DNA of 16,044 nucleotides, taken from assembly GCA_016875515.1 (NCBI GenBank), contig VGRA01000007.1:1-16044 (forward strand), given 5' to 3'. The stretch is from Deltaproteobacteria bacterium. GTDB lineage: Bacteria > Myxococcota > Myxococcia > Myxococcales > Myxococcaceae. The notes under the pieces were generated by a model, which was given only the letters and a program-made list of their open reading frames with translations, did not search any database and was not told the origin of the DNA. Each line of letters begins with the position of its first letter. Position 1 is the stretch's first letter. The translations under genes and the position numbers were made by a program. Positions 1 to 16,044 of this stretch are shown here, one piece after another.

Positions 1-184
1 CGGGCGGGCCCCACAGGACCAGCGAGGGGAGCGCGTCCCGGGCGAGCGCCTGGCGGAGGAAGCGCCCCGGGCCTGCCAGGTGACCCTGCCCGACGTACTC
101 TTCCAGCGTGGTGGGGCGCATCCGCTCGGCGAGCGGGGCGAGGGCGGCGGCGTCCGCTTCGGCGGCCTGGTCGAAGAGGTCCAT
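1..184 (-). CDS. rarA: Replication-associated recombination protein A, AAA+ ATPase (5' end only)
   Basis: The minus strand read from the ATG at 184 begins [11 protein letters not shown], continues with [19 protein letters not shown], and reaches [10 protein letters not shown] at the window edge. The pattern RMRP-x-(T/N)L-x-x-Y-(V/I)GQ-x-HL followed by the Walker A lead-in (WGPPG) is the hallmark N-terminus of RarA/MgsA/WRNIP1 clamp-loader-like ATPases, which act at stalled replication forks with SSB. Only about 61 of the expected roughly 430 residues are visible; the rest lies to the left of base 1. No Shine-Dalgarno sequence is obvious in front of the ATG, but the N-terminal alignment to the family supports this start. 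The gene diverges from the NAD kinase gene, with about 37 bp between start codons. RuvB or another clamp-loader family is less likely because of the RMRP...YVGQ signature. Confidence 0.88.
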
Positions 185-221
185 GGGGAGAAGGGGGAGT
201 CCTGGGCTAGAACGACGGGCC

Positions 222-1076
222 GTGTCCATAAAGACCATTGCGCTCGTGGCGAAGAAAGGGAAGGGCGAGGCGGTGGAGCTGGCGCGCGCCATCCGCGCCC
301 GCTACCCCGGCTGCATGTTCCTCGCTGACGCGCACCTCTCGGAGTTGCTCGGGGAGGCCGGGGGGCCGTCCAACGAGGAGGTGGGACGCCGGGCGGAGCT
401 GGTGGTGGTGCTGGGCGGGGACGGCACGCTCATCCACGCGGCCCGGATGCTGGCGGGGCGCGAGGTGCCCATCCTGGGGGTGAACCTGGGATCGCTCGGC
501 TTCCTGACGGAGATTCCGCAGGAGGATCTCTTCCCCCGGCTGGACGACGTGCTGCACGGCCGGGCGGTGCTGGACCCCCGGATGAAGCTGCGCTGCCGGC
601 TGCTGCGGGACGGCAAGCAGGTGATGGAGGACCACGTCCTCAACGACGTGGTCATCAACAAGGGGGCGCTCGCCCGCATCGCGGACCACGAGACGTTCGT
701 GGACAGCAAGCTGGTGACGACCTTCAAGTCGGACGGCGTCATCGTCTCCACGCCCACCGGCTCCACCGCGTACGCGCTGTCCGCGGGGGGCCCCATCCTG
801 TACCCGAGGGTGGACGCCATGGTGCTCGCGCCCATCTGCCCGCACGCGCTGACGCAGCGGCCGCTGGTGGTGCCGGCGGACCGGACCGTTTCCATAATCC
901 TGCGCAACTCCCCGGCGGACGTCTTCCTCACCATTGACGGCCAGGCGGGGTTGCCGCTCCAAGACGGTGACCGGGTGGAGGTGAGCCGCAGCCCGCAGCG
1001 GGTGCTGCTCGTGCGCAACCCGCGCATGGACTACTTCTCCATCCTGCGCAGCAAGCTGCACTGGGGCGAGCGGTAG
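222..1076 (+). CDS. nadK: NAD kinase (ATP-dependent NAD(+)/NADH kinase)
   Basis: This 284-aa cytosolic enzyme phosphorylates NAD(H) at the 2'-hydroxyl to make NADP(H). All family landmarks are present: the GGDGT nucleotide loop at residues 65-69 after a hydrophobic strand (LVVVL), the NDVV motif in [11 protein letters not shown] near residue 145, the glycine/threonine motif [15 protein letters not shown] from about residue 177, and TIDGQ near residue 238. The GTG at 222 gives the usual family length and starts directly on the first beta strand ([10 protein letters not shown]). A longer reading from an ATG at 183 would add 13 residues that do not look conserved. A purine-rich stretch (GGGGAGAAGGGGGAG) lies 185-199, rather far from the GTG, so the exact start remains open. 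The gene appears single, followed by about 100 bp of intergenic DNA. Confidence 0.93.
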
Positions 1077-2746: not shown

Positions 2747-3007
2747 ATGAACGCGATGGTCAAGGCGCAGTCCCGGAAGGCTCTCAAGCGCGGTCAGGGC
2801 ATGACCGAGTACATCATCATCGTGGCGCTCATCGCCATTGCGGCCATCGGCGTGGTCACGCTGTTCGGTGACAACATCCGCAAGCTGTTCGGCACGTCCG
2901 CCAACGCCCTCCAGGGCAGCCCGAACGAGAAGAACAACCGCACCAAGGCGAACGACGGCCTGACGAACAAGGGCATGAAGAACTTCGGCCAGAACAACTC
3001 GTACTAG
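2747..3007 (+). CDS. Flp-type (type IVb) pilin-like protein
   Basis: This is an 86-aa small prepilin. A basic leader (residues 1-16, KALKRG at its end) is followed by QGMTEYIII and a roughly 20-residue hydrophobic segment (ALIAIAAIGVVTLFG). Cleavage after Gly16 by a prepilin peptidase would leave Glu at +5 and Tyr at +6, exactly the Flp signature. The segment after the helix (about residues 55-86) is unusual for the family: it is hydrophilic and rich in Asn, Lys and Gly (SPNEKNNRTKAND, NFGQNNSY). A second ATG at 2756 is a possible start; AGGGG at about 2735-2739 suits 2747. The gene stands alone, with no tad/cpa assembly genes in view, so the assembly machinery must be elsewhere. A strong terminator follows. 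Family assignment is firm; a filament function is inferred. Confidence 0.85.
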   Translation: MNAMVKAQSRKALKRGQGMTEYIIIVALIAIAAIGVVTLFGDNIRKLFGTSANALQGSPNEKNNRTKANDGLTNKGMKNFGQNNSY

Positions 3008-4804: not shown

Positions 4805-7800
4805 ATGCGCCGGGGCGGCGCGCTTGTGATAGGGGAATCCTCCTTGTCCGACTCGAACGCACGCCCCGCTTCCCCCCGCGCCTCCGCTCCCCTCTCCGCC
4901 CAGGACGACGGCCGCTGGCTGCTCACCCTCCGAGACGAGGTGCAGCCCGTCACTTTCAAGAAGGGGCGCCAGTACGCCGAGGGCAGGCGGGTGCTGAACC
5001 TCGCCCGCGCGGACGGCCGCCTCACCGCGGACGTGGTGGGTACCGAGTCCCGCTACTCGGTTGCCGCCTGGCCCGGTGAGGGCAAGGTGTCCTCCACCTG
5101 CAACTGCGAGAGCCACGACAAGTACGGGCCCCACTGCAAGCACGTGGTGGCGCTGGCGCTCGTGTACCTGGCCCGGCTGCGCGCGGCAGGCTCCGCGGCG
5201 GCGGCGCCCCCCGCTCCTGCGTCCCGGCCGCCAGCCACGCCCGCGTCCGGCGAGGCGCCCGGGGACGGGCAGGACGAGGAGGCCGAGGGGGCGCGCGCGC
5301 CGTCCTCCCCGGCCGTGGAGGGGGTGGGGCTGCCGGGGCTGGCCAAGCTGGAGAGCTGGCTGGGGCTGTCCGCGCTGCCGGACCACGAGTTCAGCTACCG
5401 GATCACCCCGTCCGGCCCGGGCGCGGGGCGGCACTGGCTGGTGGACGTGCGGCGGCTGGACGCGCAGGCCAAGGGGCCGGTGCACGTCAAGCGGACGCTG
5501 ACCCAGGGGCTGCGCATAGCGCCGGCGGACGAGCGCATCTTCCTGGAGCTGTCCCGCCACGAGCACCGCTACGACGCGCGCGTGGTGCTGTCCGACGAGG
5601 ATCTCGCCGAGGTGATGGAGCTGCTGCGTCCCCGCCGCGTCATCTACCGGGGCACGCCGCTGCTGTTCATGGACGACCCGGCGCGCCCGCAGGTGAAGCT
5701 GGAGAGCCGGGCAGACGGGGCCACCGCCACGCTGGAGGTGCTGCTGCCCGGAGGCCAGTCCCTGGGGCTCAAGGACGTCATCGTGCTGGGGGGGCGGGTG
5801 ACATGGGTGCTGGTGGGCCAGTCCGTGCACCGGCTGGAGCCGGCGTTCCCGGCGCGGCTGCTGCGCAAGTGGCTGCTCGAGCCGCAGATGTCCTTCCCCC
5901 CGGGGCAGCTGGACCGGGTGCTGACCTTCTTTGCGGCGCACCTGCCGCGGTTCCGCATGTCGCTGCGGGCGGACGGGCTGGAGGTGGACGAGCAGACGCC
6001 GCCCCGCTTCCTGCTGACGGTGGAGGGGACGCCGGACAAGGTGAGGGCACAGCTGGCGGCGCGCTACGGCAAGGCCACGGTGCCGGTGTCTCCGCACGCG
6101 CAGCACCTGGGGTACGCGCTGGGCGGGGGCGGGCAGGGGCGCAAGCTGTACCGCCGCCGCGAGGACGCGGAGCGGGCGGCCGGCAAGCGGCTGGTGGAGG
6201 GGGGCTTCCGGTTTGACGCCGGGGCGGGCACCTACGAGGCATCCGGGGACGCTGCGCTGGAGTTCTGGGCGCGCGGGGTGAAGGCGCTGCCGGAGGACTG
6301 GGAGGCGTACGGCACCACGGCCCAGAAGGTGAAGCTGCGCCCGGCGCTGAAGCCGCGCGTGCGCGTGGGGATGAGCGGGGTCAACTGGTTCGAGCTGGAG
6401 GCGGAGTTCGTCTCGGACGACCAGTCCGTGGACCTGGGGGCGGTGCGGATGTGGCTGGACTCCGGCCGGCGCTTCATCGCGCTGAAGGACGGCAGCTTCA
6501 CCGAGGCGGACCGCGAGGCGCTCAAGCGCGCGGCGGACCTGCTGGAGGAGGCCGGGGCGCTGCCGGGGGCGAAGGCCACGCGGCTGCCGCTGCACTCGGC
6601 GGCGGCGCTGGAGCTGCTCTCGGAGCTGGGAGAGTTCTCGGAAATGGAAGGCCGGGCGCGCGCCGCCATCGCGGAGCTGAAGGCGGAGCACGGCGTGCCG
6701 CCCATCCCGCGGCCGGAGGGGGTGGACGCGGAGCTGCGGCACTACCAGGAGGCCGGGGTGTCCTGGCTGTGGTTCCTGGAGCGGCACGGGCTGTGCGGCA
6801 TCCTCGCGGACGACATGGGCCTCGGAAAGACGCTGCAGGCGCTCTCCCTGCTGCAGAAGGCCCGCAACGTCCACGGGCAGAAGGCCTCCCTGGTGGTGGC
6901 CCCCACCTCCGTGCTGCCCAACTGGCAGCGCGAGGCGGAGCGCTTCACCCCGGGGCTGAAGGCGGTGGTGTGGCACGGGCAGGACCGCAAGGAGATGGCC
7001 GAGTCCCTGAAGGACGTGGACCTGGTGCTCACGTCCTATGCGCTGGTGCGGCGGGACCTGGAAGAGCTGTCCAAGGTGGGCTTCCGGTACGTGGTGCTGG
7101 ACGAGGCGCAGAACATCAAGAACGCGGGGAGCGCCACGGCGCAGGCATGCAAGGCCATTCCCGCCGAGCACCGGCTGGCGCTCACCGGGACCCCGCTGGA
7201 GAACCGGCTGTCGGAGCTCTGGAGCCTGTTCGACTTCCTCATGCCGGGCTTCCTGGGCGGGCCGGACACGTTCCATGACCGGTACGAGCACCCCATCCAG
7301 GTGCAGGGGGACGCCTCCGTGCGGGACCGGCTGCGCAAGCGCATCCAGCCCTACATCCTGCGGCGGCTGAAGACGGAGGTGGCCAAGGATCTTCCCCCGC
7401 GCACGGAGACGGTGGCCTTCTGCGAGCTGGACCCCGGGCAGGCGGCGCTGTACCGGGAGGTGCTGGAGGAGAGCCGCCGGAAGGTCTACGACACCATCGA
7501 CAAGGTGGGCTTTGGCCGCAGCAAGGTGAGCATCCTGGCGGCGCTGATGAAGCTTCGGCAGGTGTGCTGCGATCCGCGCCTGCTGAAGCTGCCGCCGGGG
7601 ACGCAGCTGCCCCCGTCCGGGAAGCTGGAGCGGTTCAACGCCCTGGTGGAGGAGCTGGTGGGGGAAGGGCACCGGGCGCTGGTGTTCAGCCAGTTCACCG
7701 AGATGCTGGAGCTGCTCAAGGGCGAGGCGGACCAGAAGAAGCTGGGCTACCTGTACCTGGACGGCCGGACGCGGGACCGGATGGCGCGGGTGGACGAGTT

Positions 7801-8131
7801 CAACAACCCGGCTGGGCCGCCGCTGTTCTTCATCAGCCTGAAGGCCGGCGGCACGGGCCTCAACCTGACCGCCGCGGACTACGTCATCCACTACGATCCT
7901 TGGTGGAACCCCGCGGTGGAGGACCAGGCCACGGACCGGGCGCACCGCATTGGGCAGACGCGGGCGGTCATTGCCTACAAGCTCATCACGCGCGGGACGG
8001 TGGAGGAGAAGATCCTGGCGCTGCAGAAGCGCAAGCGGGAGCTGGCTGCCGGGGTGCTGTCCGCGGAGGGGGACTTCGGGAAGACCCTCACGGAGAGCGA
8101 CGTGGAGGAGCTGTTCCGGGACGATCTGTAG
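4805..8131 (+). CDS. SWIM zinc-finger SNF2-family DNA-dependent ATPase (helicase-like)
   Basis: This 1,108-aa cytosolic protein is expected to translocate on double-stranded DNA and remodel nucleoprotein. Residues 99-113 form a SWIM zinc finger (C-x-C-x9-C-x-H: Cys99, Cys101, Cys111, His113). A low-complexity Ala/Pro linker and a large middle region (about 180-640) typical of bacterial SNF2-associated domains follow. The ATPase core has motif I DDMGLGKT (669-676), motif II DEAQ (766-769), motif III LTGTPLENR (from 793), SLKAGGTGLNL (from 1011) and motif VI DRAHRIGQ (1044-1051). All catalytic residues are present, and length is normal for the family. The start is ambiguous: the ATG at 4805 is used here, but a TTG at 4844 preceded by AGGGGA (4831-4836) is a good alternative. 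It may be co-transcribed with the lipoprotein gene ending 10 bp upstream. The DNA target is unknown. Confidence 0.93.
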   Translation: MRRGGALVIGESSLSDSNARPASPRASAPLSAQDDGRWLLTLRDEVQPVTFKKGRQYAEGRRVLNLARADGRLTADVVGTESRYSVAAWPGEGKVSSTCNCESHDKYGPHCKHVVALALVYLARLRAAGSAAAAPPAPASRPPATPASGEAPGDGQDEEAEGARAPSSPAVEGVGLPGLAKLESWLGLSALPDHEFSYRITPSGPGAGRHWLVDVRRLDAQAKGPVHVKRTLTQGLRIAPADERIFLELSRHEHRYDARVVLSDEDLAEVMELLRPRRVIYRGTPLLFMDDPARPQVKLESRADGATATLEVLLPGGQSLGLKDVIVLGGRVTWVLVGQSVHRLEPAFPARLLRKWLLEPQMSFPPGQLDRVLTFFAAHLPRFRMSLRADGLEVDEQTPPRFLLTVEGTPDKVRAQLAARYGKATVPVSPHAQHLGYALGGGGQGRKLYRRREDAERAAGKRLVEGGFRFDAGAGTYEASGDAALEFWARGVKALPEDWEAYGTTAQKVKLRPALKPRVRVGMSGVNWFELEAEFVSDDQSVDLGAVRMWLDSGRRFIALKDGSFTEADREALKRAADLLEEAGALPGAKATRLPLHSAAALELLSELGEFSEMEGRARAAIAELKAEHGVPPIPRPEGVDAELRHYQEAGVSWLWFLERHGLCGILADDMGLGKTLQALSLLQKARNVHGQKASLVVAPTSVLPNWQREAERFTPGLKAVVWHGQDRKEMAESLKDVDLVLTSYALVRRDLEELSKVGFRYVVLDEAQNIKNAGSATAQACKAIPAEHRLALTGTPLENRLSELWSLFDFLMPGFLGGPDTFHDRYEHPIQVQGDASVRDRLRKRIQPYILRRLKTEVAKDLPPRTETVAFCELDPGQAALYREVLEESRRKVYDTIDKVGFGRSKVSILAALMKLRQVCCDPRLLKLPPGTQLPPSGKLERFNALVEELVGEGHRALVFSQFTEMLELLKGEADQKKLGYLYLDGRTRDRMARVDEFNNPAGPPLFFISLKAGGTGLNLTAADYVIHYDPWWNPAVEDQATDRAHRIGQTRAVIAYKLITRGTVEEKILALQKRKRELAAGVLSAEGDFGKTLTESDVEELFRDDL

Positions 8132-8159
8132 CAGGGACGCGGAGGAGGCACACCCAGCC

Positions 8160-8868
8160 ATGGCGGCCCGGCGCAGCATCCTCTTCGCCGCACACCCGGC
8201 GGTGGGTCACACGGGGGCGCTGCGCGCCATCGCCGCCGAGCGCCGCACCCGCGGACACGGGACCGGTTTCGCGCTCGTGAACGCGTGCGTGCCGTTTGCG
8301 TCGGCGTGGCCGGAGCCGGTGCAGGCCGCGGCCCGCCTGCCCGCGCTCATTGCGAAAGAGGGCGCGGAGTTCCTGGGGCTGCAGCCGTCCCTCGCGGCGC
8401 TCCGGCGCGCTGTCCGCTTGCCTCGCGCGACGGGCCAGGCGGAGCTGGAGACCGCGCTCGCGCTGTTCACGGGCGGCCTCGAGGCGCAGGCCCGGCAGCT
8501 CGCCGCGCACGCGCAGCGCATCCGCGCCGCCGTCGTCGCGGGTGACTACCTGATGCCCGCCGCGTTGCTCGGGGCGCGCCTGTCCCGCCTGCCGTTTGTC
8601 GCCGTCTACCACTCCGCGTTGCCGTTCCCGGCCGCCGGGGCGCCTCCCTTCGGGACGGTCCTGCCAGAGCCTGCGCGGGGGAGCGCCGCCCGGTGACAGG
8701 CTCTTGCTTCGCCCCGTCTCGCCGGACCTGAACCTGCTCGCGACCGCCCCGGAGCTGGAGCCGGGCCTTCTGCCACTTGAGGGCAGGGTCGTCATGACGG
8801 GGCCGTGCCTGCCGAGGGGCGCGGCGCTCGGACTTGCCGCGGGGCCGCACGTGGGCCTCGCACGGTAA
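8160..8868 (+). pseudogene. UGT-like (MGT-family) glycosyltransferase remnant, frameshifted and 3'-truncated
   Basis: The ATG at 8160 follows GGAGGAGG (8141-8148). The first frame gives 178 residues ending at a TGA at 8694. It opens with a GT-B donor/acceptor start (RRSILFAAHPAVGHTGALRAI), with further N-terminal-domain segments such as VVAGDYLMPAALLGARL and FVAVYHSALPFP. The protein-like sequence then continues in the next forward frame: LLLRPVSPDLNLLATAPELE (from about 8700) and GRVVMTGPCLP (to about 8815), ending at TAA 8866-8868. The whole C-terminal nucleotide-sugar-binding domain is absent. The linker between the two pieces also looks shorter than in complete enzymes, suggesting a deletion plus frame change. 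It should be inactive. It probably once glycosylated a small hydrophobic acceptor, but the acceptor cannot be told. Confidence 0.75.
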
Positions 8869-8882
8869 GCTCTCCCACCCCG

Positions 8883-9743
8883 ACGCGCCCGGCGCGTGGC
8901 CCAGGCGTCCAGGCACTCCCGGACCGTGCCGTCATCGTGGGTGAGCACGACCTCGCGTCCGTCCAGGCTCAGCGCAACGTAGCCGGGGTCGTCGCCGCGC
9001 GGCTCACCGTGCGTGATGCGCGCTGATCCGGAAGTCGTCCACCGGGCCTCGAAGGGGATGAAGGAGCCGTGCTGCCAGAGCATGCGCGCGGCGAACGCCC
9101 GGCCCATCGCCATGGCGATCTCGCCGGGCGGCATCCCGGGCGGTGGGGTGTCCTCCTCGCCCTCGAACCAGCGGGCGTAGGCGTGCTACAGCGGCCCGGG
9201 GGCCCGGGTCGCGGCCTTCATCACGAGCGCGGACGCCACCGCCGCGGCCTGCCCTTGCGCGAGCGGCCCCAGGTCTCGCAGCGCCCACAGCGCGGCGACT
9301 GCGTAGGGCGGCTCCGACACGATATGGCCCAGCGGCTCCACCGCGCGCGCGTCGCCGATCTTGCCCAGCGCCTCGATTACCGAGCTGCGGACGGGGATGA
9401 CGCCGTCGCCCGTGCCGTGGCCGGGAGGGCACTGCTCGAGCGCGTGGAGGAGCGCCGGAACCGCGGCGGCAGCAGCGGGCCCCATCTTCGCGAGGCAGCG
9501 AGCGGCGCCGGTGGGGCAGGTCCGCCGGTCCTCGTAGCGCGTCAGCAACCACCCGAGCACACCGCGCGGCGGTCGTGGCTGGCAGCTGTCCAGCGCATCC
9601 ACGCCGAAGCGGCAGTGTCGCCCCTCGAGCTGCGCGACGATCTCCTCCAACGCGGGCGCCTCGGCCGACGTGACGGGGTGCCCGCCCCGCTCACACCCGG
9701 CGAGGCAGGCCAGCACCGGGAGCAGGGCGCGCAGCCTGTTCAC
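8883..9743 (-). pseudogene. HEAT-repeat lipoprotein, interrupted by in-frame TAG and lacking a proper 3' end
   Basis: The GTG at 9743 overlaps the stop of the Nudix gene as GTGA. The protein starts with a lipoprotein signal (VNRLRALLPVLACLAGC, Cys17). HEAT-like helices follow (CLAKMGPAAAAAVPALLHAL, SSVIEALGKIGDARAVEPL, YAVAALWALRDLGPLAQG). After 185 codons there is a TAG at 9188-9186. The same frame then continues with convincing protein sequence: HAYARWFEGEED, GEIAMAMGRAFAARMLWQHG, YVALSLDGREVVLTHDDGTV. The stop is one base from CAG (Gln), so a C-to-T nonsense change is the simple explanation. Beyond about 8883 the frame runs into antisense glycosyltransferase sequence with no natural stop, so the original end is lost. 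A functional 185-aa truncated product is possible but less likely. Confidence 0.72.
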
Positions 9744-10261
9744 GCGCCCGGCGCCCGTGGCGCGGCCTGGCCGGGGACGAGCCCGCCGCGCTCCAGCCAG
9801 TCGCGCACGGCGAGCCCGGTGCCGAACGTCCAGGGCTTCAGCTTCTCCTTCGGGATGCGCTTCAGCTCCTCGAGCTCGTCGGAGAGCGTGACGGGGCCGC
9901 GCGCGCGCACGTGGAACGCGAGGATGAGCTCGTTGCGCAGCTCGAAAGGGTAGGCGCCGACGAACGCCACGACTTCGCCCTCGAGCCCCGTCTCCTCGCG
10001 GACCTCGCGGAGGACGCCCGCCTCGGGCGACTCGTCGGCCTCGAGGAAGCCGGTGACGAGCGCGAACATCTTCTCGGGCCAGCCCTTGCCGCGCGCGAGC
10101 AGCACCGCGCCCGCGTGCTCGAGGATGGCCGCGACGACCGGCGTGGGGTTGTTCCAGTGGACGAAGCCGCACCCCTCGGCAGGGCACGCCTTGCGGACGC
10201 GGCCGCCCGCCTCGCGGTCGACGAGCGGCTGGGCGCAGCGGGGGCAGAAGCGGACGTTCAT
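9740..10261 (-). CDS. Nudix hydrolase with N-terminal zinc ribbon
   Basis: This 173-aa cytosolic enzyme is expected to hydrolyse nucleoside-diphosphate-X substrates. Residues 6-31 form a zinc ribbon (Cys6, Cys9, Cys26, Cys31; FCPRC...KACPAEGCGF) followed by HWNNPTPVVAAI, as in NudC-like and related Nudix proteins. The Nudix box is complete at residues 71-93 (G-x5-E-x7-REVREETGL; metal-binding Glu86, Glu89 and Glu90). It ends with a short Ala/Pro tail. The length is far shorter than NADH pyrophosphatase NudC (about 260 aa), so a different substrate is likely; the exact one cannot be told. Its stop overlaps the GTG of the HEAT lipoprotein by 4 bases, so the two were translationally coupled. It is one of only two clearly intact genes in the decayed block. 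No Shine-Dalgarno sequence is seen; see the candidate promoter just upstream. Confidence 0.88.
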   Translation of the reverse strand: MNVRFCPRCAQPLVDREAGGRVRKACPAEGCGFVHWNNPTPVVAAILEHAGAVLLARGKGWPEKMFALVTGFLEADESPEAGVLREVREETGLEGEVVAFVGAYPFELRNELILAFHVRARGPVTLSDELEELKRIPKEKLKPWTFGTGLAVRDWLERGGLVPGQAAPRAPGA

Positions 10262-10270
10262 GGCTGGGCG

Positions 10271-10280
10271 AAAATAGCAG
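10271..10280 (-). promoter_or_regulatory. Candidate extended -10 promoter for the Nudix gene (near-leaderless)
   Basis: On the minus strand CTGCTATTTT contains a TG-n-TATTTT extended -10 element (TATTTT at 10276-10271). It would place transcription start only a few bases before the ATG at 10261, so a leaderless or nearly leaderless mRNA is possible. That would fit the absence of a Shine-Dalgarno sequence. No good -35 hexamer is present. This is a weak call based on sequence match alone. Confidence 0.3.
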
Positions 10281-10307
10281 GACCCGAGGCGCGGCTCGTC
10301 GCTGACG

Positions 10308-11065
10308 TCAGGGGAGTCCACCGAGGAACGGCATGACCGCGGCGTGGAAGGCTGCGCTCTCCTCGAGAAAGGGCGCGTGGCCCGAGTTCTCGAAGCGCAC
10401 CAGCGTCACGTTCGGGAGCGCGGAGACTGCGTCGCGGTTGTGCGCCCACTGCACGAGCCCATCGCGCATGGCCCAGCCCACGAACACCGGCAGCGAGAGG
10501 GACGGCAGCCCCGGGCCCGAGGAGGATGTCGGCGTAGTACCCGGCGAACCAGTCCCGGTACCGGGCCTCGCCCGCAACGCCGCGGCGGAAGCGCGACACG
10601 AGGTGGTCAATGAAGAGGCCCGCGACGAAGCCGCCCGGGTCCAGCCAGGCGGGGTTGCAGAGCACCAGCGCGCGCACGCGCCCGGGCGCTTGTTGTGCCA
10701 GGGCGATGGCCGCCGCCCAGCCAATGGAGTTGCCGAACAGGAGGGGCGCTCGAGCCCGAGCGCGTCCAGCAGGCCGCGGAGCAGCGAGGCGTACCGGTGC
10801 GCGCTCGCCTGCTGCGTGTCGGCCCCCGAGGCGCCGTGGCCGGGTCGCTGTCGTGGACAGCGAGTGACACGCCGTCCATCTCCACGAGGCGCCTCGGTTC
10901 CTGCACGGCGAGCGCGAGGTGGCGGGGGGGCATGGGCTCCAGTTCGGCCCGCGTCAGCACCCGCGGCGCGGCACAGCCAGACAAGACGGCGCAGGCCAGC
11001 AGGAGGGAGAGGGGCCCGGGACGTCCCGGTCCGGGGGATACTCGGCGAATGCACGCACTCTCCAT
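10308..11065 (-). pseudogene. Alpha/beta-hydrolase lipoprotein remnant, spread over three frames with internal deletion
   Basis: The first frame from the ATG at 11065 gives a lipoprotein signal (LSLLLACAVLSGC) and then LVEMDGVSLAVHDS. A second frame continues at about 10845 with PGHGASGADTQQ and YASLLRGLLDALGLERP. A third frame (about 10745-10505) gives LLFGNSIGWAAAIALAQ with the nucleophile elbow G-N-S-I-G, then RALVLCNPAWLDPGGF. A return to the second frame gives LPVFVGWAMRDGLVQWAHN and the catalytic-His motif FENSGHAPFLEE, ending at a TGA at 10310-10308. The usual HG oxyanion segment between GVSLAVHDS and the DRPGHG-type loop is missing, which implies about 50 lost codons. Three frame changes plus that deletion make this a pseudogene. 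The 10744 change could be a single lost C in a C-run. Confidence 0.78.
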
Positions 11066-11087
11066 GGCGCCGTTTTCCCCTTAATCC

Positions 11088-11786
11088 ATGCGGGCCCGGC
11101 TCGCGCTGGATGCACAGGGCATCCCCTACCGGGCGGTTCACTGCGTCCCGGCAATCAGCGAGCCCGCGCTTCGCTTGCGGCTCTGGGACTTCCGGGGACG
11201 CATCTCGGTGCCGGTGCTGCTCCCGGAGGACGGGCCTCCGGTAAGGGAGTCGTTCGAGATTGCGGCCTGGGGCGCGGCCCGGTCCGCGCGGCCGTTGATA
11301 ACCGCTGACAACCGGGAGGGGTGCGAGCGCACGGACGCGCTCTCGAACCGCGCGCTGGAGGCGGGCCGTGCGCGCACCACGCGGCTCGTCTACGACGACG
11401 CGGCAGCGCTGCGCGAGTCCATGCCTCCCGCGGTGGCCGCGCTGGGACCCCTGGGGCGGGCCATTGGCCGCAATGCCACGTGGGACCTGCTGCGGAAGTA
11501 CGGCGCCGAGGGCATCACCGAGACCGAGGCTTTGGCGCAGCTGCGCGGCGCGCTGTTGGAGCTGCGCGGCGCAATCGCCGGGCGCGAGTGGCTGCTCGGA
11601 GAGTTCTCCTACGCGGACGTTACAGGGGCCATGGCGCTCGGCTTTGTCTCCCCCCACGCGCGGGCGCCACTCGGGCCCGCGAGCAGGCCGCTCTGGACGG
11701 TGGAGTCGCTGGCCGCGGAGTTCGCGGACCTGGTGGCCTTCCGCGACCGGGTGGTGGACGAGGTCCGCCGCAGGCGTAAAGCCTAG
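11088..11786 (+). CDS. Glutathione S-transferase-like protein, N-terminally truncated
   Basis: The open frame codes for 232 aa. It begins MRARLALDAQGIPYRAVHC, the first alpha helix and following strand of a GST thioredoxin-like domain, with the cis-Pro region RISVPVLL and the glutathione-contacting VRESFEIAAW (the usual E-S pair). The C-terminal helical domain follows (LRGAIAGREWLLGEFSYADVTGAMAL). The first beta strand and the catalytic Ser/Cys/Tyr loop expected before MRARLAL (usually ...SP-x-S/V) are missing, because a TAA lies two codons upstream (11082-11084). Only 22 bp separate this ATG from the divergent hydrolase start, leaving no room for a promoter. Both facts suggest the 5' end was deleted. 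It may be expressed as an inactive or partial protein. Its TAG shares bases with the stop of the gene on the other strand. Confidence 0.68.
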   Translation: MRARLALDAQGIPYRAVHCVPAISEPALRLRLWDFRGRISVPVLLPEDGPPVRESFEIAAWGAARSARPLITADNREGCERTDALSNRALEAGRARTTRLVYDDAAALRESMPPAVAALGPLGRAIGRNATWDLLRKYGAEGITETEALAQLRGALLELRGAIAGREWLLGEFSYADVTGAMALGFVSPHARAPLGPASRPLWTVESLAAEFADLVAFRDRVVDEVRRRRKA

Positions 11787-12589
11787 GGGGCGAAGGCCGC
11801 GGCGAGCTCCGCGAGGCGGTCCGTGTTGACGAAGTCCACGCCTGCGTCGCGGGCCTCGCCCCAGTACGCGGGCGTGTCCGGGCTCGCGTAGATCCGCAGG
11901 GCCCGTCCCTTCTGGTGGACGCCGTCCACCAGGTTCTGGAGCTGCCGCCGCTGGGTGGGGGGCATGGGCGCCGTGCCGTCCCACGCGAGGAAGTTGAAGT
12001 AGTTCACCGCGTAGAAGGCCCACTGGCCGTCGGCCGGTGGATCGTCCGGGGCGTAGGTGTTGCTGTCGCGCACGTAGGGACGTGGCGCTGGCCGCGCGGC
12101 CAGCGCCTTCTTGGCCGCGTCGTGGCCGGTGAGCACCACCACCACGGCGCCTGCGCGCTGCTCCCCGAGGTCGTCGTAGGCCGCCAGCCAATCGCAGGTG
12201 CCGAGCTGCGAGGCGAGCAACTCCTGCAGCTTCGCGTCGCCCTGCTTGAGGTCCAACCAGAGGTAGAAGGGCCGGCGGTCACCGTGGACGCTGCCGCCGT
12301 TGGCCGCGATGCGCGCGGCGAGCGGCTCCAGGTACAGCGCGCGCAGCGAGCCCTTGAAGGGTGCCCCCGTGTGGGAGACGCCGAGCTCCTCTCCGTCGAG
12401 CCAGAGGTCTGCCTCCACGCTCTCGAAGCCCTGGTCGAGCGCGTCGAGCAGCGGGCGCGCGTGCTCGTAGTCGTTGTGGGCGTGCTTGAGCGACCACAAC
12501 GGCGACGGCGGCGTGCCCGCGTCCACGGCAGGCAGCACCGGCGTGCAGGCGGTGAGCAGCAGCGCGGCGAGGAGCAGGTGCGGTTTCAC
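11783..12589 (-). CDS. Glycerophosphodiester phosphodiesterase / PI-PLC-like lipoprotein
   Basis: This 268-aa protein has a lipoprotein signal (LLLAALLLTAC, Cys15). The conserved opening WSLKHAHNDYEHARPLLDAL (residues 32-51), GFESVEADLWLDG with the metal-binding pair Glu59/Asp61, and ELGVSHTG with His73 match the TIM-barrel GDPD/PI-PLC superfamily. The HAHNDYEHxRPL variant points to the Aim6-like subgroup. Later strands include FYLWLDLK, AVVVVLTGH, LRIYASPDTPAYW and GVDFVNTDRL near the C-terminus, so the barrel is complete. The start is a GTG with no clear ribosome site; the TPR remnant ends 10 bp upstream, so co-transcription with it was likely. The predicted role is hydrolysis of phosphodiester head groups in the periplasm, but the substrate is unknown. 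It appears intact. Confidence 0.85.
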   Translation of the reverse strand: MKPHLLLAALLLTACTPVLPAVDAGTPPSPLWSLKHAHNDYEHARPLLDALDQGFESVEADLWLDGEELGVSHTGAPFKGSLRALYLEPLAARIAANGGSVHGDRRPFYLWLDLKQGDAKLQELLASQLGTCDWLAAYDDLGEQRAGAVVVVLTGHDAAKKALAARPAPRPYVRDSNTYAPDDPPADGQWAFYAVNYFNFLAWDGTAPMPPTQRRQLQNLVDGVHQKGRALRIYASPDTPAYWGEARDAGVDFVNTDRLAELAAAFAP

Positions 12590-12599
12590 GGCGGGGACT

Positions 12600-13829
12600 C
12601 TAGCCCCGCTGGGCGCGACGGGGGCCTGCGGTGGCCGCCGCCGGCGGGGTGCCTGCCTGGCGCTGCTTCATGCGGGCAAGACAGTCCCGCCCCTGCTGCA
12701 CCAGCGGATGGTCCCGGCCCAACAGGTGCCCCATGCGCGCCAGGGCCTTGGTGGCTGCGCCGCCCCGGTTTCCGGAGGCGAGTCCCAGTCCCAGCCGGAG
12801 CCAGGCAACGTGCGCCTCGCCTGCGTCCCGGGTGAGGGCGGCGAGCCGCTCGAAGTGGCCGCGGGTGTCCGTGCGCCCCAGGTCCACCAGCTGGATCCAG
12901 GCGAGCGCAGCGAGGCTGTCGAGCGTGTCAGGGTGGGACGGGCCGAGCGTGCGCTCGCGGCCCTCGAGCGCCCGGAGCAGCAGGTGTTCGGAGCGAGCGA
13001 GCCGGCCAGCGTGCTGCTCCCACAGCCCGAGTGTGTGGGTGCTGACGAGGGTCCTCGGGTGTTCCGGTCAGAGGGAGCGCTCGCTGGAGCGTACGACGCG
13101 CGCGAGCAACTGCCGGGCCTTCCGGTCCCGCCCCGTCTCCACGAAGAGGACGGCAAGGTTGTTCAGGGCATTGAGCGTGAGCGGGTGCGAGGCGCCGAGG
13201 GCGCGCGTGCTGGCAGCGCGGGTGCGCACCAGGAGGGACTCCGCAGCCTCGCAGTTGCCGCGTGTCTTCTCGAACAGGGCGAGGTTGAGCAGGCAGGCCA
13301 GCGTCCCTTGCCTCGAGGACCCGCCGTAACAGGCGCTCGGCGCCCGCGAAATTGCCACCGTCCTTGTCGAGCAGGCCCAGCAGGTTCAGCCCCATCAGGG
13401 TTCCGCGGTGGTCGGGGCCAAGGACGGACTCCGCGCGTTGAACGAGCTTGGCCGTGAAGTCAGTGCCCGCGCCGGACAGGCCCGCGTCCCGCAGGAACTG
13501 GGCAACGGTCAAGGCGGCCTCCAGCCTGTGCTCCGTCCAGCCGTCACCGGCCAGCGCCGCGAGGTACGCGGAGCCGGCCCTGGCGAGCCCCACCACCCGC
13601 CATGCCGCGAGCGGGACGTCTGCGCTCGGCCACGCGTTACAGTGCGCCACCCCAGGTCGGCCAGCGCCCGTTCCGCCTCCTCCACGCGACCGTTCACCAG
13701 CAGGTGGGCCACGGCGTGGCGCGTCGCGTATACAGCGCGCGCGCCGTGTGGGCCGGCTGAAACCGGCCAGGCCACCTCGCCCAGGCGGTCGTTCAGGGCG
13801 CGGCGGGTGTTCAGCCGGAGCCGGGGCAT
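12600..13829 (-). pseudogene. TPR (kinesin-light-chain-type) repeat protein remnant with frameshifts and a nonsense codon
   Basis: Starting near the ATG at 13829, one frame gives RHAVAHLLVNGRVEEAERAL. At about 13650 the sequence continues in another frame with YLAALAGDGWTEHRLEAAL, RAESVLGPDHRGTLMGLNLL and NFAGAERLLRRVLEAR. At about 13315 it returns to the first frame with GTLACLLNLALFEKTRGNCE and LGASHPLTLNALNNLAVLF. A TGA at 13070-13068 sits exactly where a Gly is expected in SL-G-PEHPRTL. The frame stays open beyond it (LLLRALEGRERTLGPSHPDT) to the TAG at 12602-12600. The LG-P-x-HP-x-TL repeats are TPR units of the kind found in the C-termini of myxobacterial Ser/Thr kinases and signalling proteins. 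No kinase or other N-terminal domain is present here. It is not expected to make a functional protein. Confidence 0.78.
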
Positions 13830-13860
13830 CAGCCGATCTGCACTTTCAACGCGTTCCCTT

Positions 13861-13906
13861 CAGAAAGCCAAAGGCCGCTGCCCCCGAGGTGACGGGAACA
13901 GCGGCC
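13861..13906 (-). terminator. Rho-independent terminator after the ompA-family gene
   Basis: On the minus strand GGCCGCTG pairs with CAGCGGCC (8 bp; + coordinates 13899-13906 with 13873-13880). An inner CCCG/CGGG stem extends it. The hairpin is followed by TTTGGCTTTCT. It lies about 35 bp after the stop codon at 13941. Confidence 0.75.
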
Positions 13907-13940
13907 GCGGCGTCTCACCAGCCCGAGGCGGGTGGCCTTG

Positions 13941-15392
13941 CTACTCGGCCAACTGCTCGAGGATGGTGAACTCCACGCGGCGGTTCTGCTCCCGCGCCTC
14001 ATCCGAGTCCGCAGTGTCCAGCGGCCGGGAGGAGCCGTAACCCACCGCCTCCAGCCGCTCCTTCTCCACGCCCTTCTTCACCAGGAAGGCCACCACGGCC
14101 TTCGCGCGCTCCCCGGAGAGTTTCTGGTTCTTCTCCGCCTTGCCCTTTCCATCCGTGTGGCCCTCCACGCGCACCTTCTTCAAGCGCGGGAAGTTCTTGA
14201 GCACGGCCGCCACCTCGGTGAGCAGCATCTCGGACTTCTTCTGCACGGTCGCCTTGTTGAGGTCGAAGAACACCTTGTCGGTGATGGTCACCTTCTCCTT
14301 GGTGATGAAGGCCGCGGCCTCCTTCTCCGGGCAGCCGTCCGCGTCGTCCTTGCCGTTGACGGTCTCCGGCTCCAGCGGGCACTGGTCCGCCGCGTCCGGG
14401 ACGCCGTCGTTGTCGTTGTCCTTCTCGGCGCAGCCGTCCTCGTCCTGGAATCCGTCCTTGTCCTCGGGCTCGCCGGGGCACTTGTCCGCGGCGTCCGCAA
14501 TGCCGTCGCCGTCGTTGTCGGCCTCCACGCAGCCGTCGTCGTCCTGGAAGCCGTCCTTGTCCTCGGGCTCGCCGGGGCACTTGTCCGCGGCATCCGCAAT
14601 GCCGTCGCCGTCGTTGTCGGCCTCCGCACAGCCGTCGTCGTCCTGGAAGCCGTCCTTGTCCTCGGCGGCGTCCGGGCACTTGTCCGCGGCATCCGCAATG
14701 CCGTCGCCGTCGTTGTCGGCGTCCACGCACCCGTCGTCGTCCTGGAAGCCGTCCGTGTCTTCAGCGGCGTCCGGGCACTTGTCCTTCTCGTCCACCAGCC
14801 CGTCGCCGTCGCGGTCCTGTGACTCGCCGGGATCCTTGGCGAAAGAGAGCGAGAGCCCGAGCGTGGCGACCAGCAAGTTGTCCGCCAGGGTCAGCTTCAC
14901 GAGCGGTCCCACCTGCATCCCCTCCACCAGGGACACCTCGGCGCCGCCACCCACCTCGAAGCCCGGGACCTTGAGGCCGGCCTCGCCGGTCATCAGGAAC
15001 GAGGCGTCCACCCACCAGTTGCCCAGCCAGTTGCCGCTCTTGTTGTCCCCCGGCATGTGGAAGCGGTAGCCCTTGTGGTCGTCCACCAGCCGGTAGCGCA
15101 CGCCGAGGCCCGCCCCGTAGGTGATGGAGGGGCGCACCGCGAGGGGGAGCGAAATGGCGAGCCCCTGGGCCTGGACCGCGAGCCGGCTGTAGACCGGGAT
15201 GTCCAGCTTGGCCGCCACCCCGAAGCCAACGCCCTGTCCCGTGCCGGTGTGGCCGTCCGGGCTGATGACCACGTTGGCCAGGGAGGCGGCCACGCCGGTC
15301 TCGAAGTGCAGGTTGAACGGACCCGACTCCGCGGTCGCGGCGCTGGAGGCGAGGAGCGAACAGAGGCCGAGACCACGCAGGGACTTACCCAA
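13941..15392 (-). CDS. OmpA-family outer-membrane protein with thrombospondin type 3 repeats
   Basis: This protein of about 483 aa is predicted to anchor the outer membrane to peptidoglycan. A signal peptide (residues 1 to about 22, LCSLLASSAATA) is followed by a region of about 165 residues with alternating strands that looks like a small outer-membrane barrel. Next come acidic calcium-binding-type repeats (about residues 192-336) of 33 residues each (DNDGDGIADAADKCP...DGFQDDDGC). The C-terminal OmpA domain contains FDLNKATV, VRVEGHTDGKGK, LSGERAKAVVAFL and EQNRRVEF, with the Asp and Arg that bind diaminopimelate. The start chosen is a TTG at 15392, because AGGAG (15403-15399) lies six bases upstream and the signal peptide then begins MGKSLRG. 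In-frame starts further upstream would overlap the promoter. The gene has its own promoter and terminator. Confidence 0.9.
   Translation of the reverse strand: MGKSLRGLGLCSLLASSAATAESGPFNLHFETGVAASLANVVISPDGHTGTGQGVGFGVAAKLDIPVYSRLAVQAQGLAISLPLAVRPSITYGAGLGVRYRLVDDHKGYRFHMPGDNKSGNWLGNWWVDASFLMTGEAGLKVPGFEVGGGAEVSLVEGMQVGPLVKLTLADNLLVATLGLSLSFAKDPGESQDRDGDGLVDEKDKCPDAAEDTDGFQDDDGCVDADNDGDGIADAADKCPDAAEDKDGFQDDDGCAEADNDGDGIADAADKCPGEPEDKDGFQDDDGCVEADNDGDGIADAADKCPGEPEDKDGFQDEDGCAEKDNDNDGVPDAADQCPLEPETVNGKDDADGCPEKEAAAFITKEKVTITDKVFFDLNKATVQKKSEMLLTEVAAVLKNFPRLKKVRVEGHTDGKGKAEKNQKLSGERAKAVVAFLVKKGVEKERLEAVGYGSSRPLDTADSDEAREQNRRVEFTILEQLAE
14385..14820 (-). repeat. Tandem 99-bp repeats encoding TSP3 calcium-type units
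   Basis: Nearly identical 99-bp units (33 codons) recur: the block GCAATGCCGTCGCCGTCGTT begins near 14497, 14596 and 14695, exactly 99 bp apart. Diverged partial units lie on both sides. Each unit encodes DxDGDGIxDxxDxCP plus a DGFQDDDGC tail. The high DNA identity suggests recent duplication and possible copy-number change between strains. Confidence 0.85.
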
Positions 15393-15422
15393 GGTGAACT
15401 CCTGGACGGTGTAAGAGCGCCG

Positions 15423-15451
15423 AACCGTAGTTCCTGCCGTCTGAATGTCAA
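15423..15451 (-). promoter_or_regulatory. Sigma-70-type promoter for the ompA-family gene
   Basis: On the minus strand a perfect -35 TTGACA (15451-15446) is followed, after 16 bases, by TACGGT (15429-15424), a partial -10 match. Transcription would begin near 15417, about 25 bases upstream of the TTG start and including its AGGAG. The -35 match is strong; the -10 is weak. Confidence 0.5.
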
Positions 15452-15500
15452 CGGACGTCGGAGCAAGGTGGGCTGAAAAATTGGTCAGTGTCAGCATCCA

Positions 15501-15517
15501 CTGATAGCGTGTTCAGT
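15501..15517 (+). promoter_or_regulatory. LexA (SOS) box upstream of recN
   Basis: CTGATAGCGTGTTCAGT matches the LexA-binding motif I recall for Myxococcus xanthus (CTRHAMRYBYGTTCAGS) at 15 of 17 positions, including the full GTTCAG half. It also forms a perfect inverted repeat CACTGA-N8-TCAGTG (15499-15518). It lies about 45 bp before the recN ATG, where a repressor would block transcription. recN is a classic SOS gene in many bacteria, which supports the call. The motif is quoted from memory. Confidence 0.72.
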
Positions 15518-15562
15518 GTGACGCGGGAATAGGCCTGCGCCCGGCGCGAGGAGGTGTGCGGC

Positions 15563-16044
15563 ATGCTTCAGGGGCTCCGGATCTGCCAGTTCGCGGTGAT
15601 GGAAGAGGTGGAGGTGACGTTCAGCGGCGGGCTCACCGTGCTGACGGGAGAGACGGGGGCGGGAAAGTCCATTGTCATGGACGCCCTTTCGTTGCTCCTG
15701 GGTGGGCGGGCGGAGCCGGACTGCGTGAGGGCCGGGGCGGGCGAGGCCACGGTGGAGGGGACGTTCCGGCGTACGCCGTTGCTCGCGGCCCGTCTTGAGG
15801 AGCTGGGGCTTCCGGACCTGGGGGACGAGCTGCTCGTGCGGCGGGTGGTGGGGCGGGGCGGCCGGTCCCGGGCGTGGGTCAACGGCTCCCTGGTGACGGT
15901 GGGGGTGCTGTCCAGGCTGATGAAGGGGACGGTGGAGATTTCTGGGCAGCATGAGCACACGGCGCTGCTGGATCCGGCCGAGCACCTGGGTCTGCTGGAC
16001 CGGGAGCCGGGGATGGAGCCCGGGCGCCGCGCCTTCGACCAGGC
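15563..16044 (+). CDS. recN: DNA repair protein RecN (5' end only)
   Basis: About 160 residues of this SMC-like ATPase for double-strand-break repair are visible. It starts MLQGLRICQFAVMEEVEVTF, followed by GGLTVLTGETGAGKSIVMDA with the Walker A motif at residues 29-36. LLVRRVVGRGGRSRAWVNG comes next, then the diagnostic EISGQHEHTALLDP (SGQHEH at 127-132). This order and spacing are as in known RecN proteins (about 550-570 aa); the coiled coil and C-terminal ATPase half lie beyond the window. The start is supported by GAGGAGG at 15548-15554, eight bases upstream of the ATG. The LexA-type operator just upstream suggests induction by DNA damage. The gene diverges from the ompA-family gene and shares a 170-bp intergenic region with it. 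Confidence 0.94.
   Translation, partial: MLQGLRICQFAVMEEVEVTFSGGLTVLTGETGAGKSIVMDALSLLLGGRAEPDCVRAGAGEATVEGTFRRTPLLAARLEELGLPDLGDELLVRRVVGRGGRSRAWVNGSLVTVGVLSRLMKGTVEISGQHEHTALLDPAEHLGLLDREPGMEPGRRAFDQ

Follow-up and report, generated by a model that had tools for sequence, protein, structure and literature searches.

A probable cluster of decaying genes in an accessory segment between SNF2 and recN of a myxobacterial draft genome

Clusters of bacterial pseudogenes are known from strain-specific segments, where lesions (deletions, frame changes and stops) affect several neighbouring accessory genes and leave the genes around them intact, and deletion-biased decay is the ordinary fate of dispensable bacterial genes. 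The locus described here, a block at positions 8160 to 13829 of a contig from a deltaproteobacterium of the Myxococcaceae, shares this arrangement. It differs from the known clusters in that nothing such as host restriction presents itself as a cause and in that the segment around it retains intact Nudix, GDPD-like and OmpA-family genes. Parts of the block also resemble described families or gene pairs. An open relative of its broken glycosyltransferase scores E 5e-40 against the macrolide family glycosyltransferases (TIGR01426, MGT), although the 137.7 bits of this match fall below the family cut-off of 260 and the copy in the block is without its C-terminal half. Similarly, Cyanobium, Vulcanococcus and two further cyanobacterial genomes (loci L260-L263) carry a tandem pair of a HEAT-repeat gene and a gene of an unnamed 290-aa family, and the same families occur in the block in the same order and strand, whereas here the pair is fused by a deletion and bears a stop. 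We place at roughly four in five the probability that the block is a genuine pseudogene cluster, decaying largely by deletion, in a lineage-specific accessory segment between SNF2 and recN.

The window, that is, the whole stretch of 16,044 nucleotides analysed, is one entire contig (C7) of a draft genome of 3.92 Mb in 904 contigs that is 87% complete. Frames were read by six-frame translation together with three-phase GC and a codon-usage model, and the comparison set of 40 genomes, this genome counted in, held no second genome of the same genus. The features are collected in Table 1. Measured in 500-bp steps, the GC content of the window is 64-77% and does not shift at the borders of the block. 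Outside the block, a short open frame at 2747-3007 encodes what we take to resemble a Flp/TadE-type pilin.

Table 1. Features of the window, with positions counted from its first letter.
Feature	Position	Strand	Remarks
NAD kinase	108-1076		open
SNF2-family helicase	4805..8131	+	intact; left border of extra segment; Pfam SNF2-rel_dom E 1.9e-75
Extra segment between SNF2 and recN	8132..15553		7.4 kb (gap 7,423 bp)
Glycosyltransferase remnant	8160..8865	+
C-terminal remnant, unnamed 290-aa family	8907..9230	-	junction with HEAT part approximate
N-terminal remnant, HEAT-repeat lipoprotein	9231..9743	-	in-frame fusion with 290-aa-family remnant
Nudix hydrolase	9740..10261	-	intact; Pfam NUDIX E 8.5e-15; relatives 56-73% identity
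Alpha/beta hydrolase remnant	10308..11065	-
GST-like gene	11049..11786	+	in-frame TAA 11082-11084 within N-terminal domain
GDPD-like lipoprotein	11783..12589	-	intact; relatives 49-61% identity; Pfam GDPD_2 match below its cut-off
TPR-repeat protein remnant	12600..13829	-
OmpA-family protein, thrombospondin type 3 repeats	13941..15497	-	intact; inside extra segment
recN, N-terminal part	15554..16044	+	open, cut by contig end; right border of extra segment

SNF2 is ~60-72% identical to its relatives across most of its length, and the spacing between this gene and recN sets the window apart from them. Ten of the eleven relatives in which the two genes lie together have a gap of only 63-418 bp (a count in which the stretch from G013 is too short to tell and that from G005 has no recN match), as against 7,423 bp in the window, and the block thus accounts for the greater part of the additional DNA found here. 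The exception is G010, where a gap of 3,848 bp holds a gene with copper-binding motifs; in the stretches fetched from G002 and G004, recN has no adjoining SNF2. Absence from the same place in relatives is what marks a lineage-specific accessory segment. The original prediction had named SNF2, an ompA-family gene and recN as clean flanks. All three are indeed open, but the extra segment extends past the right end first assigned to the block and takes in the OmpA-family gene, which is no flank. This gene contains 99-nt direct repeats (14325-14819) that match its thrombospondin type 3 repeats.

We further note that, among nine genomes of other families, five (G024, G025, G027, G028 and G032) have NAD kinase and recN 0.07-0.36 kb apart and four have the two genes on separate contigs; in the eight other members of the same family with both on one contig, the distance is 3.5-14.9 kb. 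The interval between NAD kinase and SNF2 is variable too, measuring ~0.1 to 11.4 kb across eight relatives (L165-L172), and genes may have been gained repeatedly in this neighbourhood.

A segment that is extra relative to its neighbours, lies at a variable site and carries a patchily distributed HEAT family and partner might be what remains of a single defined mobile element. This proposal concerns the origin of the segment and is compatible with a pseudogene cluster, and we consider it improbable. None of the marks of such an element (integrase, transposase, border repeats or a tRNA target) was found: the tRNA search of the window returned none, the borders of the segment have no convincing repeats, and the Pfam matches of the genes scanned include no integrase or transposase. 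Likewise, the phage search gave no match, and the plasmid search gave matches in 7 of 72,556 records, those listed covering at most 6% of the query.

Within the block, six of eight genes are broken (glycosyltransferase, HEAT, 290-aa family, alpha/beta hydrolase, GST-like and TPR), and the Nudix and GDPD-like genes are open. Open or longer relatives exist for all of the broken genes but the TPR gene, so that several adjacent genes are interrupted relative to open homologs, as in a pseudogene cluster. The four genes that had been named as broken (glycosyltransferase, HEAT lipoprotein, hydrolase and TPR) are broken where they were placed; their count as four of seven gives way to six of eight.

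The glycosyltransferase has a frame change and ~90 nt missing near 8663-8701, and its C-terminal half is absent. In a comparison with three relatives, its alignment to an open-frame relative falls into two separate segments, and the missing ~90 nt lie between them. Open frames in the relatives run to 427-727 aa, and the UDPGT and EryCIII-like domains of one relative fall in the half that the window copy has lost. Matches occur in 8 of 59 other genomes at 33-52% identity.

The 'HEAT lipoprotein' proves to be the remains of two genes. Residues up to ~169 match HEAT proteins that are mostly 333-361 aa long, and the rest of the fused frame corresponds to residues 177-289 in a 290-aa family that is unrelated to them and has no Pfam or NCBIfam match of its own. 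This second part carries an in-frame TAG at 9186-9188 and has no stop at the usual family end. A contig scan for the HEAT family, from which records of this genome itself are possibly left out, gave 13 loci with 9 strong matches. The HEAT and 290-aa genes stand in tandem in four of these nine, all of them cyanobacterial (L260-L263), and relative to these four the window lacks ~1.0-1.3 kb between the matching points. Among the other strong matches, L259 (Cyanobium sp. FGCU6) has only the C-terminal part of the partner after the HEAT gene, and L255-L258 (three titled Betaproteobacteria and one uncultured bacterium) have no 290-aa partner in the stretch near it. Since five of the nine loci are thus without a full-length partner, we can only infer that the two genes were once in tandem in this lineage. 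In the genomes searched, the HEAT part has matches in 0 of 59 others and the 290-aa family in 1 of 95, at 55% identity. A speculative extension, to which we assign a small probability, is that the lipoprotein and its partner form an undescribed two-gene accessory module moving between cyanobacteria and this lineage, the block showing one copy that had fallen out of use shortly before.

The remaining broken genes carry lesions of several kinds. Alignment of the alpha/beta hydrolase with an open relative in G013 reveals two gaps, each longer than 100 nt, and a frame change of a single base. Six of 59 other genomes have a match: G013, from which the query came, G041 and G005 with open relatives at 58% and 52% identity, and three at 31-34%. 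The GST-like gene had been said to lack its N-terminus. The frame in fact extends upstream to the ATG at 11049, so the N-terminus is present and interrupted by the TAA, a site covered by four of the five relatives that aligned; matches occur in 9 of 59 other genomes at 32-37% identity. The TPR gene changes frame at about 13310-13330 and at 13650 and has an in-frame TGA at 13068-13070. Its relatives were found only at 29-43% identity, and none of the 59 other genomes has a match. In this genome, 87% complete, each broken gene matched only in the block at the thresholds used, with no second copy. These absences weigh little, because the searches used differing thresholds and, for four of six queries, only fragments or a late-opened frame of the broken genes.

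The Nudix and GDPD-like genes, which the original prediction took to be kept or not yet hit, are open, and Table 1 gives the identities of their relatives. At the DNA level, the Nudix gene has matches in 11 of 39 other genomes (G001, G004, G005, G006, G013, G016, G019, G021, G024, G035 and G039), a count that leaves out weaker short matches in that stretch.

Some of the shortened or fused products could in principle be functional new genes, for instance the HEAT fusion, which stays in frame, or the GST-like frame, which is open for 232 aa from 11088. We regard this as highly improbable: the fusion contains a stop of its own and only part of a HEAT protein of the usual length, the glycosyltransferase has lost the half that holds its relative's recognized domains, and the hydrolase frame is broken three times.

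A different concern is that a low-coverage or strain-mixed stretch yielded false frame changes and stops through assembly or sequencing error. In favour of this stand the fragmentation of the draft and its raised background of flagged lesions, and one published account holds assembly responsible for many apparent pseudogenes (PMC11017572). Genome-wide, 64 lesions were flagged in 582 kb of this genome compared with 23 in 403 kb from 20 relative genomes (P 0.006), a roughly twofold rate under a codon model whose training data came from this genome; the excess may reflect mild decay, draft quality or that own-genome training.

The block nevertheless stands out from this background. The codon-usage scan picked up 4 frame changes and 2 internal stops there; applied to 100 other contigs of this genome, with 944,716 coding bases in all, it marked 22 frame changes and 94 internal stops. 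With 5,300 coding bases assumed for the block, a figure set by us, the Poisson probability of the excess is ~9e-6 for frame changes and 6e-5 for all lesions; these values are optimistic because the block was chosen for looking broken. None of the 100 other contigs has more than 2 frame changes per 5,670-bp span. The scan misses at least three lesions of the block (the glycosyltransferase frame change, the GST-like stop and one TPR frame change), may miss as many elsewhere, and makes some false calls at places where adjacent genes have the same frame. The claim that decay is confined to one block is borne out to the extent that flagged frame changes are concentrated there.

Two other signals were set aside. 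Eight in-frame stops flagged at 1000-4100 of contig L230, the highest count of the scan, were rejected as decay, the stretch being repeat-rich and probably misread in strand or frame, and frame changes were accordingly given more weight than stops. Third-position GC gave no clear signal as a clock of decay: it is 0.89-0.93 in the broken genes, 0.94-0.98 in most intact neighbours and 0.90 in recN, with a genome median of 0.92, and values within the genome's range neither prove nor date decay. Contigs L215, L038, L051 and L220 of the same genome each have four flagged lesions within 5.7 kb and are possible further decaying blocks.

Error is also disfavoured by where the lesions lie and what they are. 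They are concentrated in a single extra segment, and the Nudix, GDPD-like, OmpA-family and SNF2 genes of the same contig are free of them. As the original prediction held, deletions argue against pure sequencing error: judged from the alignments, the stretches of ~90 nt to 1 kb missing relative to intact relatives would not be simple base-call errors, nor would the two-gene fusion, though both are possibly misjoins. Further, the shortened glycosyltransferase product (one member sequence) and the shortened HEAT product (two member sequences) each occur on five contigs, the window's contig among them, although these contigs are possibly re-assemblies of the same reads and so not independent. The dense frame changes and the two recurring products together make random assembly error unlikely, and we hold error as a whole to be an unlikely source of the block.

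A genuine pseudogene cluster could have arisen as follows. The genes of the segment would have lost their use, after which non-homologous deletions, one of them joining the HEAT gene to its neighbour, would have accumulated along with stops and small indels; the Nudix, GDPD-like and OmpA-family genes would still be under selection or as yet unhit. The suggestion that an accessory segment was recently released from selection is sound as to its accessory nature, given 7.4 kb that are extra relative to ten of eleven relatives and broken genes with few or no relatives in the searched genomes. Codon periodicity in the broken genes is still strong and their proteins are still alignable, signs that suggest recent decay and carry no date.

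Overall, the appearance of the block is that of ordinary gene decay, not of a new biological system. On a small scale it clearly illustrates how adjacent accessory genes can decay together next to open neighbours, and how a deletion-made fusion of two genes yields a misleading 'lipoprotein'. For draft genomes it also serves as a caution, as single-pass gene naming can count one fused remnant as a gene.
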